DNA of 64,000 nt. Source: Sphingomonas lacunae. Its GTDB lineage: Bacteria; Pseudomonadota; Alphaproteobacteria; Sphingomonadales; Sphingomonadaceae. The stretch lies in contig NZ_CP053015.1 in NCBI RefSeq assembly GCF_012979535.1, positions 2,852,001-2,916,000 of the forward strand, given 5' to 3'. Position numbers and translations under genes: made by a program. The stretch's first letter is position 1. Each line of letters opens with the position of its first letter. The notes beneath the pieces were generated by a model. The model was not told where the DNA came from. It did no database searches and saw only the letters and a program-made list of their open reading frames with translations. Shown here one piece after another: positions 36,447 to 40,315 of the stretch.

Positions 36447-37181
36447 TCAAAAACTGCCCAATTGTTGAAGCATCCGGGCTCCCGACCGGCTGACCAGCGC
36501 ATAACCGCTGCCCTTGACCGTGCGCAGCATGGCATGCTCGTGCCCGGCGTCGATCCGCTGGCGCAGGCGTGACATATGCACTTCAATCCGGTTGGTGCCG
36601 GGATCGAAGTCAATCCGCCACACTGCCCGCAACAAGTCATGCCGGGTGACGACCCGGTCGGCCGAGCGCGCCAGCCAGGCGAGCAGGTCAAATTCGCGCA
36701 GGGGCATGGCAATGTTCCGACCGGCACGATTCACCGAACGGCGGATCAGGTCGATAGTCAACTCATCACAGGCGAGCATGGTTGCGGACGGCGTCCGTCG
36801 TCGCAACAGCGCCGACAGCCGGGCCATCATCTCCCGGGGGTCTCCGCTGACGGCAAAGGCATCATCGGCGCCGGCCTGCATCGCCATGATCCGCTGTTCG
36901 GCAACATCATCGGGCGTCAACGCCAAGAATGCGCGGCACCCCGCCATCTCGCGGAACAGGGTGATGGCGGTCCGGGGGTCGGCACGGCTGCGAAACGGAT
37001 TGGCGATGATCGCCTCATGCGCTTCGTCCTGCCAGGCACGCGACGCAATCGCCGGGTCGGGCATCAGCACCGGCAGGGCGCCATGGGCACGCAACAGGCA
37101 GGCCAGCTTGGCCGACGCGGTTGGCTCCGGCTCGAACAAGGCGAGCCGAACGGGCGGCTGGCCATCAGCGGCTATCATCAT
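36447..37181 (-). CDS. OmpR-type winged-helix regulator with degenerate receiver domain
   Basis: About 244 residues. The C-terminal part (residues about 140-240) is a transcriptional-regulatory winged helix: AMPLREFDLLAWLARSADRVVTRHDLLRAVW, NRIEVHMSRLRQRID and LRTVKGSGYALV. The N-terminal 115 residues have receiver-like spacing but LFEPEP replaces the acidic pair, IIANPFRS replaces the phospho-acceptor Asp stretch, and the Lys/Thr switch is absent. It is therefore probably phosphorylation-independent. Two adjacent ATGs (37181, 37178) are possible, each overlapping the end of the upstream cupin-like gene. No histidine kinase is nearby. Likely regulator of its own cassette. Confidence 0.78.
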   Translation of the reverse strand: MMIAADGQPPVRLALFEPEPTASAKLACLLRAHGALPVLMPDPAIASRAWQDEAHEAIIANPFRSRADPRTAITLFREMAGCRAFLALTPDDVAEQRIMAMQAGADDAFAVSGDPREMMARLSALLRRRTPSATMLACDELTIDLIRRSVNRAGRNIAMPLREFDLLAWLARSADRVVTRHDLLRAVWRIDFDPGTNRIEVHMSRLRQRIDAGHEHAMLRTVKGSGYALVSRSGARMLQQLGSF

Positions 37182-38088
37182 GCAGGGCCCTCGCGTCCAT
37201 GCGGTCGAGGAACAATTTTGCCATGCCGCTGACAAGCGGGGATGACTCCATTGTGGCCCGTTCATAGAGGCGCCGGCGGCCAGCCTCATCACGCACCCCT
37301 GCCATTGCCTGCCAGGCGCTCCATCGTGCCCGCTCGCTGGGATGGCTCCGGGCCAGGTGCGCGGCGAGTTCCATTGCCTCACTGCTACCAAGCCGCACCG
37401 CCATGCCGAGCAATATTTCCCCTTGCGATAGCGTCGGCACCCCACTGACATGGTTATGCCGCGTGTCGAACAGATATTGGTCCCGCCACACGGTTCCCGG
37501 CTGATCGGCGACAATGTTGAGCGAGACTGACAGGGCGGTTGGCGGCAACTGGTCATGGACATCGCGGTGGGCGCGATAATGCAGCACACGCCCCTCACCC
37601 AACTGGCCCTGTTCGACAAGCCGCAGGCCTGCGGCTTCACCCGGCACCCCGCTTATCGGGGTATCGTCCCGCTCATACCAGTTGCTGCGATAGCCCGGCC
37701 CCCAATAGCCGACGGTGACAAAGTCGAAATTATGGTCATGCGGGACATGATAGAAATAATGCTCGGCACCGCTGGCATGCAGCACCGGATCATCAGCTGC
37801 CGGCCAGAAATTGGCCCGGATGAACCACGCTCCAGGCCGCCGCGCCAGCATCAGCACTTGCGCGCCATAACGGTTGCCGGCCTGCTGTCCCGCGCACCGC
37901 TGGCGCAACTCATCCATCGCCAGTCGAGCCAGAAAGCCCCGATTGGCGCACAGTCCTGCCAACAACTCCCCAGCCCGAGCCACCCCGTCCGGGTTGGACA
38001 GGTCACACCCCGACTCATCCAGCCGCGCGCTGCATTCCTCCAGATCGATGGCGGCCACGCCCGCAGCATGGCGCAGCTCAACCGGCAT
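37165..38088 (-). CDS. Cupin-like protein with HxH motif
   Basis: A 307-residue protein that I do not assign to a named family. Residues about 110-215 contain HYFYHVPHDHNFDFVTVGYW with a HxH pair, and later HYRAHRDVHDQLPPTALSVS, spacing that fits a double-stranded beta-helix metal site as in cupin oxygenases. The N-terminal 90 residues are helical, and the C-terminal 90 residues are helix pairs like HEAT-type repeats (SEAMELAAHLARSHPSERARWSAWQAM). The ATG lies inside the last codons of the HEAT-repeat gene (11-base overlap), and the stop overlaps the regulator's start. Enzymatic role inferred only from the motif. Confidence 0.6.
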   Translation of the reverse strand: MPVELRHAAGVAAIDLEECSARLDESGCDLSNPDGVARAGELLAGLCANRGFLARLAMDELRQRCAGQQAGNRYGAQVLMLARRPGAWFIRANFWPAADDPVLHASGAEHYFYHVPHDHNFDFVTVGYWGPGYRSNWYERDDTPISGVPGEAAGLRLVEQGQLGEGRVLHYRAHRDVHDQLPPTALSVSLNIVADQPGTVWRDQYLFDTRHNHVSGVPTLSQGEILLGMAVRLGSSEAMELAAHLARSHPSERARWSAWQAMAGVRDEAGRRRLYERATMESSPLVSGMAKLFLDRMDARALHDDSR

Positions 38089-39037
38089 GGGCTGCCTCCC
38101 TGGTCATGCGCGCGATCAGCGCCATTGTCGCCTTGGCCGCGGTCCGCACCGATGGATCGGCGTCATCATCCGCCATCCTCGTCAGCACTGGCAGGGCATC
38201 CCTGGCATCCTCGGCCAGCCAGTAGCGCATCGCCTGCCAGCGCAACATCGGGTCAGCGTCGCGGCACAATCGCGACAGCAACTCGCACCGGCCCTCCGGA
38301 CCTGCCGTCGGGATCAATGGCAGCAGCAACAGCATTCTCGACACCGCCGGATCGGCCGTGCCGCGCCGCAGCAGTTGTCCCGAATGCGCGTCAAATTCGA
38401 GGGTAGGCCCGCTCCTGTCCGGCCCTGCGACTGCCATGTTCAACAGCAGCGCATCGGCGGGCGCGCTGTGGATGATGAGTTGTTCGGTGCGGTTGTCCTG
38501 CGCCAAAAGCGCACCTCGCCCCATCCGGCAAGTTCGTTCCAAACACGCGTTGCCGTTGCCCCTGTCGAGCCGCCAAAGCTCCACCTCGATTGTGCCGGCC
38601 ACCACAAAGACCAGCGAAAAGCCACTGTCGAACACCAGCCGGCGCGCTTGGCCGGCCCCGGCTTGCACGGCGAGCCGTTCGGCGCCCAACTGCGCCAATG
38701 TTGCATACGCGCCCCCTGCCTCGATCAGCGCCAGCGCCTGCATCAGCCCACCGGACTGCATCCCCATCGGTAACTCGGCCAGCGCGTCGGCCGAAAGGGA
38801 CTGACAAAATGTGCCTATCAGATCCCGATACCAGCCATCGTTCACCAGCCACGGCATCAATGCATCGGCAAACGCCATCGCATCAGCTGGCAAGGCTGCA
38901 TCCATTGCCATCAGCCGGTCGCGCAGGGCCCGGACATCCTCACGCGCCTGCCAAGCGCCCATCAACTCCGCGCCAATTGCCCTCGCCCTCTCAAGCCGGT
39001 CCCGGTCCGCTAACGCACAGGCCAGCGAACCGGGCAC
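38078..39037 (-). CDS. HEAT-repeat protein with cupin/cNMP-like central domain
   Basis: About 320 residues if translation starts at the GTG at 39037; the start is uncertain. The N-terminal half is helical (RDRLERARAIGAELMGAW). A beta-rich centre (RRLVFDSGFSLVFVVAGTIEVELWRLDRG and MGRGALLAQDNRTEQLIIHSAPADALLL) resembles a cupin or cyclic-nucleotide-binding barrel without clear ligand residues. Helical repeats of HEAT type follow (ADPMLRWQAMRYWLAEDARDALPVLTRMADDDADPSVRTAA). The longer frame reaching 39202 overlaps the peptide gene in another phase and is probably not translated. A stem-loop separates it from the peptide gene. Confidence 0.6.
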   Translation of the reverse strand: MPGSLACALADRDRLERARAIGAELMGAWQAREDVRALRDRLMAMDAALPADAMAFADALMPWLVNDGWYRDLIGTFCQSLSADALAELPMGMQSGGLMQALALIEAGGAYATLAQLGAERLAVQAGAGQARRLVFDSGFSLVFVVAGTIEVELWRLDRGNGNACLERTCRMGRGALLAQDNRTEQLIIHSAPADALLLNMAVAGPDRSGPTLEFDAHSGQLLRRGTADPAVSRMLLLLPLIPTAGPEGRCELLSRLCRDADPMLRWQAMRYWLAEDARDALPVLTRMADDDADPSVRTAAKATMALIARMTREAAHAG

Positions 39038-39047
39038 AGCCGATGCT

Positions 39048-39077
39048 GGCAGGCTGTCGCCGCCAGACAGTCCTGCC
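39048..39077 (-). other. Stem-loop between the peptide gene and the HEAT-repeat gene
   Basis: On the minus strand GGCAGG-A-CTGTC pairs with GACAG-CCTGCC (eleven pairs, one bulged A) around a 7-base loop. It starts 3 bases after the peptide stop codon and has no T-run. It may protect the 3' end of the peptide mRNA or lower transcription of the downstream genes. Confidence 0.75.
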
Positions 39078-39080
39078 GCA

Positions 39081-39224
39081 TCAGGATGCGGAGACGATGA
39101 CGGCGATGACAATGTCGAACACCGTGCCACCGCTGATCTGCAACGGGGCGTTGATCGCGCCATAGGCAGCCGGCACCACGTCCAGTTGCGGCACGAGCTC
39201 AATCGAAAGCGAAACCAGGTCCAT
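39081..39224 (-). CDS. 47-residue peptide, putative precursor or membrane peptide
   Basis: Too short for normal ORF calling, but preceded by AAAGGGGGTCAAG, an excellent ribosome binding site 5 bases before ATG. The product begins MDLVSLSIELVPQLDVVPAA, contains a GG pair after residue 31 (QISGG) and ends in the hydrophobic TVFDIVIAVIVSAS. It has no Cys. The N-terminal half is amphipathic and acidic. It is followed by a stem-loop and three downstream genes on the same strand. The layout resembles a precursor with a double-Gly-type leader, but no peptidase-exporter or known RiPP enzyme is visible. It could instead be a small membrane peptide. The 183 bases upstream to the thioesterase gene contain its promoter, not located with certainty. 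Confidence 0.55.
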   Translation of the reverse strand: MDLVSLSIELVPQLDVVPAAYGAINAPLQISGGTVFDIVIAVIVSAS

Positions 39225-39407: not shown

Positions 39408-39917
39408 ATGAGCGATGCACCGCCCACCTTTGTGTTTGATCCCGCCCGCATGTTCCGGACGATGGAGAAATATGGGCACAGTCATGCGCTGGGTCTCAAA
39501 TATGTCGCCCATGGCCAGGATTGGGCCGAAATCCGCATGCCGTGGAAAGCCGAACTGGTCGGCGACGCTGCGGCTCAGACCCTGTCGACCGGAGCGATCA
39601 TCGGCCTGATGGACATGTGCGCCGGCGTATCGGTATGGACCCGCCTGTCGGTGTTCCGGCCACAGGCGACGCTTGATCTCAGGATCGATTACATGCGTGC
39701 GGCTGCACCGCGTGCCGATCTCGTCGCCCATTGCGAATGCTATCGTGTCGCCCGGGACATCGCCTTTGTCCGGGGCCTCGCCCATGATGGGGACATGGCG
39801 GACCCCGTTGCTACCATGGCTGCGAGCTTCATGTTTACCGGACCGCCGATGCCGCCCCGCGGCAGCAAGGGCAATCCCCTGCCCGACCATGCCGCCAAGG
39901 CGGAGCGCGGGGCATGA
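39408..39917 (+). CDS. PaaI-family hotdog thioesterase
   Basis: A 169-residue acyl-CoA thioesterase of the PaaI/DUF4442-like group. The fold signature is seen in VGDAAAQTLSTGAIIGLMDMCAGVSVW, ATLDLRIDYMRAAAPRADLVAHCECYRVARDIAFVRGL and VATMAASFMF. It hydrolyses acyl-CoA thioesters, substrate unknown. The stop overlaps the start of a second thioesterase in ATGA, so the pair probably forms a functional unit. It is divergent from the peptide cassette. Confidence 0.88.
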   Translation: MSDAPPTFVFDPARMFRTMEKYGHSHALGLKYVAHGQDWAEIRMPWKAELVGDAAAQTLSTGAIIGLMDMCAGVSVWTRLSVFRPQATLDLRIDYMRAAAPRADLVAHCECYRVARDIAFVRGLAHDGDMADPVATMAASFMFTGPPMPPRGSKGNPLPDHAAKAERGA

Positions 39918-40315
39918 ACAAACCGGCTGTCACCTTGCCGCCCTATGCCGACCTGCTCGGCGCGACCATTGTCGAAAGCTCGCCCGACGATGCGCCGGTG
40001 CTGCGCATGGAGTTCAATCCCGGTCTTTCAGGCCGCCCCGGCTATCTGCATGGCGGTGCCATTGCCGGCCTGCTGGAGATGGCTGCCCATGCAGCCCTCA
40101 CCGCCTCACTCATTGCGTCCGGTCAGGAGCCCCGCTTCAAGCCGATCGGCATCACCATAGATTATGTGCGCGGAGGCAAGGAACAGCCGACCTTTGCCCG
40201 TGGCCGGGTCACCCGCGTCGGCAAGCGGGTCGCGACTGTGGTGGTCGAGGCATGGCAGGAGGAAGGCGGACCCCATATCGCCGCCGCGCGTCTCCACATG
40301 CTCATGGTCGACTAG
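39914..40315 (+). CDS. Second PaaI-family hotdog thioesterase
   Basis: A 133-residue hotdog protein: RPGYLHGGAIAGLLEMAAHAAL (conserved HGG of PaaI enzymes), KPIGITIDYVRGGKEQPTFARG and GKRVATVVVEAW. It is translationally coupled to the previous gene (ATGA). The two may act as hetero-oligomer or on different substrates; they share little identity. The 75 bases before the convergent precorrin-2 dehydrogenase hold no clear terminator. Confidence 0.9.
   Translation: MNKPAVTLPPYADLLGATIVESSPDDAPVLRMEFNPGLSGRPGYLHGGAIAGLLEMAAHAALTASLIASGQEPRFKPIGITIDYVRGGKEQPTFARGRVTRVGKRVATVVVEAWQEEGGPHIAAARLHMLMVD

Follow-up and report, generated by a model that had tools for sequence, protein, structure and literature searches.

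A conserved short-peptide operon with paired cupin-HEAT proteins in Sphingomonas lacunae is a candidate RiPP-like class

The closest described systems share some features with the operon analyzed here and differ from it in others. First, it has in common with RiPPs in general a short precursor gene in first position, a leader-like N-terminal half that is kept more tightly than the core, a conserved enzyme pair, an exporter in some clusters, and duplicated precursor/enzyme sets. However, no known RiPP enzyme, recognition domain, or protease was found here, and an exporter is usually unlinked. Second, the thiol dioxygenases (cysteine, 3-mercaptopropionate, mercaptosuccinate, and cysteamine) are the nearest solved folds for both of its large proteins, and their three-His HxH...H pattern recurs in one of them, the 307-aa protein, whereas sequence similarity is not detectable and the proteins here carry a HEAT tail and are linked to a peptide that is usually Cys free. 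Third, class IIb bacteriocin clusters resemble the gammaproteobacterial loci of this family, which have two different hydrophobic peptides and ABC transporters, and one gammaproteobacterial peptide type is glycine rich with GxxxG-like spacing. In the present family, however, the cupin pair is always present, the peptides are acidic, and most loci are single-peptide and transporter free. Finally, peptide-derived cofactors of the PqqA/PQQ type likewise rest on a small peptide, inherited vertically, and on enzymes that modify it, as is presumed here, and most loci here are also without a clustered exporter, but no enzymes are shared, the core here is hydrophobic and variable, and exporter-linked versions exist.

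The operon was found in a 64,000-nt stretch of Sphingomonas lacunae DNA (the window). Its features, a 47-aa ORF, a stem-loop, and the three overlapping genes, all lie on the minus strand at 36447-39224, in the places given by an earlier reading made from the letters alone (the sequence-only reading). The precursor-like peptide gene comes first (39081-39224), and its ATG is directly preceded by AAAGGGGGTCAAG, the good ribosome binding site that had been proposed for it. It is followed by a stem-loop reaching from the peptide stop codon to the next gene (39044-39080). Two genes for cupin-fold proteins come next: the HEAT gene (38078-39037), whose 319-aa product ends in HEAT repeats, and the cupin gene (37165-38088), whose 307-aa product has a HEAT tail. 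The last gene (36447-37181) encodes a winged-helix regulator of the OmpR type in which the receiver is degenerate. As had been described, the three large same-strand genes overlap one another, by 11 and 17 nt. The start of the 319-aa protein is presumably the GTG at 39037, which has no clear ribosome binding site; homologues reach beyond the in-frame ATG at 38980. Two 4HBT-type thioesterase genes (39408-40315, plus strand) are divergent from the peptide operon. Homologues of both occupy the same position in 37 of about 60 loci, and because these neighbors are kept, the position of the operon is fixed and old.

Analysis of its homologues, selection, and co-occurrence confirmed the 47-residue ORF as a real gene under selection. 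With a first HMM, seeded with ten upstream ORFs, nearly all loci proved to have a homologue immediately 5′ of the HEAT gene, about -1.1 to -1.35 kb from the cupin gene. After iteration, the number of loci with a homologue in this position was 127 of 141 (these are loci and not independent genomes, some genomes having been fetched twice by two routes), and among the loci missed by the HMM at least two show a peptide by eye. All nine cupin-positive genomes searched had exactly one significant peptide match, at the cupin locus, several of the nine having themselves supplied sequences to the query alignment, and a peptide search of 13 cupin-negative genomes found none (best E value, 0.07). The median dN/dS of the peptide was 0.24 (103 pairs). 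This linkage, the dN/dS value, and the presence or absence together with the cupin gene led us to reject a chance ORF.

The window peptide, MDLVSLSIELVPQLDVVPAAYGAINAPLQISGG-TVFDIVIAVIVSAS, consists of a leader-like N-terminal half and then a hydrophobic, acidic C-terminal half. The pN/pS ratio was 0.23 for the N-terminal half compared to 0.49 for the C-terminal half, which means a tighter constraint on the former, as in a leader and core. The linked peptide genes, the pN/pS ratios, and the alignment thus fit the RiPP pattern of an encoded precursor with a conserved N-terminal leader and a variable core. The consensus of the N-terminal half is xIDIxxxPxLxTxVGxxGS; the QISGG motif that had been singled out is not conserved as such, and a GG is found there in part of the family. 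Several types of the V/I-rich, acidic C-terminal half can be told apart. Sphingomonas and the window have F[DE]xhh, Novosphingobium/Erythrobacter have [DE]D-hhh, Sphingosinicella and the double clusters described below have VGGxxC, and gammaproteobacteria have [LI][DE]PV. These types broadly track the cupin phylogeny. A Cys is conserved solely in the VGGxxC type, nearly all peptides of the window type having none, and the mean net charge of the peptides is -4.5.

The stem-loop at 39044-39080 was analyzed by folding, by comparison with shuffled sequences, and by its conservation in relatives. It has the 11 pairs noted by the sequence-only reading, with one bulge and 3 additional outer pairs, and spans the gap between the peptide stop codon and the presumed GTG. 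The stem has an energy of -22 kcal/mol, with a z score of -3.0 for its 65-nt context relative to shuffles. A stem search also revealed a second stem-loop on the minus strand just past the presumed GTG of the HEAT gene (39001-39034; 14 pairs, with G-U counted). A continuous stem of at least 11 pairs occurs within 110 nt of the peptide stop codon in 56 of 119 distinct loci, compared to 18 of 476 control windows taken further down the HEAT gene. The stem sequences are unrelated between lineages. In Novosphingobium/Erythrobacter, where the stem sits within the first codons of the HEAT gene, paired changes are seen, for example, GCGCTGCGG/CCGCAGCGC and GCGTTGCGG/CCGCAACGC. An ordinary terminator is unlikely because no U-run was seen after the hairpin and because of this location inside the HEAT coding start; the hairpin may instead set the ratio of peptide to enzymes. 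Since the peptide and hairpin stand directly ahead of the enzymes, the peptide gene could also be a translated regulatory leader (attenuator) for HEAT-cupin enzymes that act on a small molecule. We consider this very improbable, given the purifying selection on the amino acid sequence, the lack of any run of regulatory codons or of a U-run at the hairpins, and the presence in Lysobacter of three homologous peptides per enzyme pair.

Sequence searches said little about the two large proteins: Pfam and NCBIfam gave only weak C-terminal HEAT_2 matches and placed neither in a described RiPP enzyme family. Structure prediction, which the sequence-only reading had called for, gave confident cupin folds for both (AlphaFold mean pLDDT, 93.4 for the 307-aa protein and 93.9 for the 319-aa protein). 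In Foldseek searches of the PDB, thiol dioxygenases ranked first for both, the nearest folds of the 307-aa protein being mercaptosuccinate, cysteine, and 3-mercaptopropionate dioxygenases; the TM-scores of about 0.4 of the query and 0.6 of the target indicate kinship of fold, not of function. Matches to "Pizza" and alpha-Rep proteins were set aside as repeat-composition or HEAT-only hits. The earlier proposal of a cupin/cNMP-like core in the 319-aa protein therefore holds for the cupin and the HEAT tail, whereas the cNMP-like part was rejected because Foldseek favors a thiol-dioxygenase-like cupin. When profiles of the two proteins were compared, they matched across the HEAT tail and the second half of the barrel (probability, 92.9%; pairwise E value, 3.8e-7). 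This means that they are relatives belonging to one family.

The two relatives differ at the predicted metal site. In the 307-aa protein, the HxH cupin-type ligands that had been noticed proved to be part of an invariant set, with H117, H119, H178, R91, W95, and Y133, among others, identical in 40 of 40 aligned homologues. R91 lies 26 residues ahead of the first His, the same spacing as R60-H86 in CDO, and the residues past the third His read S-x-S-x-N, compared to S-x-H-x-Y in CDO. In the 319-aa protein, conserved His residues are absent from the cupin part (38 homologues), and the window protein has a Leu at the counterpart of H178. The 307-aa protein also evolves slowly (mean column identity, 54%), whereas the 319-aa protein evolves fast (31%). 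The pair may thus consist of an active and an inactive paralogue, the 307-aa protein being presumably a peptide-modifying enzyme and the 319-aa protein presumably its pseudoenzyme partner. Its earlier assignment as a scaffold would then be too narrow, since it is a divergent cupin paralogue without metal ligands and not merely a scaffold. The 307-aa protein has what defines a thiol dioxygenase structurally, a cupin barrel with a three-His predicted metal site (by its fold and in 40 sequences), but it showed no sequence kinship with these enzymes, as there was no match between its profile and PDB sequences and no Pfam family. The nearest-fold result indicates the type of predicted metal site and not the reaction. 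Most cores are Cys free, so the thiol dioxygenase reaction as such cannot be the general chemistry, and Cys oxidation was rejected in that role.

In hundreds of Sphingomonas-type bacteria, the peptide gene is almost always accompanied by the HEAT and cupin genes. The window's genome has one copy of the 307-aa cupin protein, which was present in 97 of the 298 genomes sampled from the window's order and in 15 of 398 genomes sampled across the phylum, 13 of these 15 being in the window's own family. The GTDB one-genome-per-species collection contains 347 confirmed relatives, and no relative was found on the viral contigs searched. Four layouts were apparent. In the Novosphingobium and Erythrobacter lineages, the peptide-HEAT-cupin set stands alone. 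In 45 of 141 loci, the window included, the winged-helix regulator follows directly downstream. In Sphingosinicella, an ECF sigma factor and a membrane protein precede the set. This third layout is doubled in S. gei, S. trueperi DSM 7225, and S. sp. DG1-23: the first set is followed by a second peptide-HEAT-cupin set and by genes for an ABC exporter, HlyD, and MacB/FtsX. Polymorphobacter has a similar double cluster. In S. gei and S. trueperi, one cluster thus contains two different peptides, each with its own HEAT-cupin pair, together with the ECF sigma factor and ABC exporters. In the gammaproteobacteria (Alteromonas, Lysobacter, Tahibacter, and Stenotrophomonas), one to three peptides precede the HEAT and cupin genes and ABC transporters; Alteromonas clusters have HlyD, MacB-like, and ABC-2-type sets, and in Lysobacter a single enzyme pair stands behind its three peptides. 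Separately, three genomes (Sphingosinicella terrae, sp. CPCC 101087, and sp. LHD-64; loci L102/L117, L096/L135, and L099/L156, respectively) each have two separate copies of the locus, which fall in two branches of the cupin tree.

A minimal version of the set was found at a gammaproteobacterium-like locus from another family of the phylum (L190, 6716-8330). Here, a 40-aa peptide with an LDPV core, ending in ...LDPVFVIPIIIILTKTL, is followed by proteins of 239 aa (assigned by position and size only) and 234 aa, which have no HEAT tails and are similar in size to the cupin pair. This minimal set lies downstream of HlyD- and RND-type genes. On a plasmid of Vibrio sp. ED002 (L092, 5057-6613), a short cupin protein without a HEAT tail adjoins a 243-aa protein, a 59-aa ORF lies downstream rather than upstream, and a restriction-modification gene set is nearby.

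ABC/HlyD/MacB-type genes were seen at about 10 named loci. The sequence-only reading had reported no RiPP enzyme, protease, or exporter, and this stands for the window, but exporters do occur in relatives. The window has no exporter, most loci have none within reach, and neither a linked protease nor a known RiPP enzyme turned up at the loci examined. In the cupin tree, the exporter-linked clade is apart from the window's clade with good support. The hydrophobic cores and the two different peptides per cluster with transporter genes in gammaproteobacteria and some Sphingomonas raise the question of whether the product is a secreted, membrane-active, bacteriocin-like peptide pair, with the cupin/HEAT proteins as chaperones or immunity factors and not modifying enzymes. 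We regard this as quite unlikely, since the invariant three-His site argues for metal chemistry, the peptides are strongly acidic where typical bacteriocins are cationic, and a transporter is absent from most loci. The family also departs from the class IIb definition of an unmodified cationic two-peptide toxin with a double-glycine leader and an immunity gene: its peptides are acidic, the GG is not universal, and most loci encode one peptide. In the Novosphingobium/Erythrobacter lineages the locus looks old and vertically inherited, which would be unusual for a bacteriocin.

The last gene encodes a protein with a clear OmpR-type winged helix (Trans_reg_C E value, 5.8e-20). The receiver part is degenerate in the homologues from the 45 loci, the acidic pocket, phospho-Asp, and Lys of a phosphorylatable receiver not being kept and the part being truncated or missing in some, which agrees with the dead receiver proposed before. 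The proposed conservation of the peptide with all three proteins holds for the HEAT and cupin genes only; the regulator is optional, its gene lying immediately 3′ of the cupin gene at roughly one-third of the loci. Its receiver part has been lost in Parasphingopyxis (L153 and L055/L149), where the protein appears to be a winged-helix domain only. A degenerate receiver could bind something else, and its gene adjoins the cupin gene. The operon might accordingly be an internal signal or sensory system, in which the cupin pair and the regulator read the peptide as a ligand, whether or not it is modified, without export, for example, with the metal cupin as an oxygen or redox sensor. Vertical inheritance and the lack of an exporter at most loci agree with such a system. 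We still consider it unlikely, as two-thirds of the loci have no regulator, ECF sigma factors take its place in others, and exporters are linked in diverged clades.

The explanation that we favor, and consider probable, is RiPP-like peptide maturation, in which a precursor, a substrate-holding inactive cupin partner, and an active metal cupin that modifies the core work together. The analysis establishes which genes form the set and how far they are conserved, the selection on them, the folds and ligand pattern of the proteins, and the linkage to transporters, whereas the complex, reaction, and product are inferred. The first gene would give a short precursor with an N-terminal recognition half and a V/I-rich, acidic C-terminal core, and the hairpin behind it would let the precursor exceed the enzymes in amount. 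The two cupin proteins probably function together: the divergent 319-aa protein would hold the precursor, and the 307-aa protein, with its thiol-dioxygenase-like three-His site, would modify the core, probably in an iron- and oxygen-dependent reaction. The winged-helix protein, which has no normal phosphorylatable receiver, may regulate the set. In the window's lineage, unlinked transporters would export the product or it would remain inside; in relatives, the linked ABC/HlyD/MacB-type exporters probably carry it out. Support for RiPP-like maturation comes from the co-travelling genes, the leader/core-like selection gradient, the conserved hairpin, the paralogous cupin pair, the peptide types that follow the cupin phylogeny, the double clusters with one enzyme pair per peptide, the gammaproteobacterial transporters, and the minimal HEAT-less version. 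Counting against it are the missing linked protease or known RiPP enzyme, the missing exporter at most loci, the old and apparently vertical inheritance in Novosphingobium/Erythrobacter, the Cys-free state of most cores, and the TM-scores, which speak for fold and not for function.

The operon is thus a candidate RiPP-like class, and a new class within RiPPs if RiPP-like maturation holds. In its fullest form, which we put forward tentatively and at somewhat less than an even chance, the proposal is of a new RiPP class in which a cupin oxygenase of three-His thiol-dioxygenase fold, with a dead paralogue as holder, makes a new modification on mostly Cys-free, V/I-rich, acidic peptides, with a core role in Sphingomonadales and with related sets of other Proteobacteria working as exported systems of one or two peptides. 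If true, this would be a RiPP-like class whose enzyme pair is absent from the libraries searched and which about a third of the genomes sampled from the order possess, type strains such as S. trueperi DSM 7225 among them. It would also mean that thiol-dioxygenase-type cupins act on ribosomal peptides that have no thiol and that an active/inactive paralogue pair can be a recognition device. Searches of Pfam, NCBIfam, PADLOC, and PDB sequence profiles gave no family beyond HEAT_2 and Trans_reg_C, the PADLOC anti-phage defence models gave no match, and titles and abstracts in the open-access literature searched for HEAT, cupin, and RiPP and variants held no description. One contig (L141, RPSH01000001.1) has the title Bacillus sp. 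2B10, but its operon is of the typical Sphingomonas kind, and it probably comes from a mislabelled or contaminated genome.
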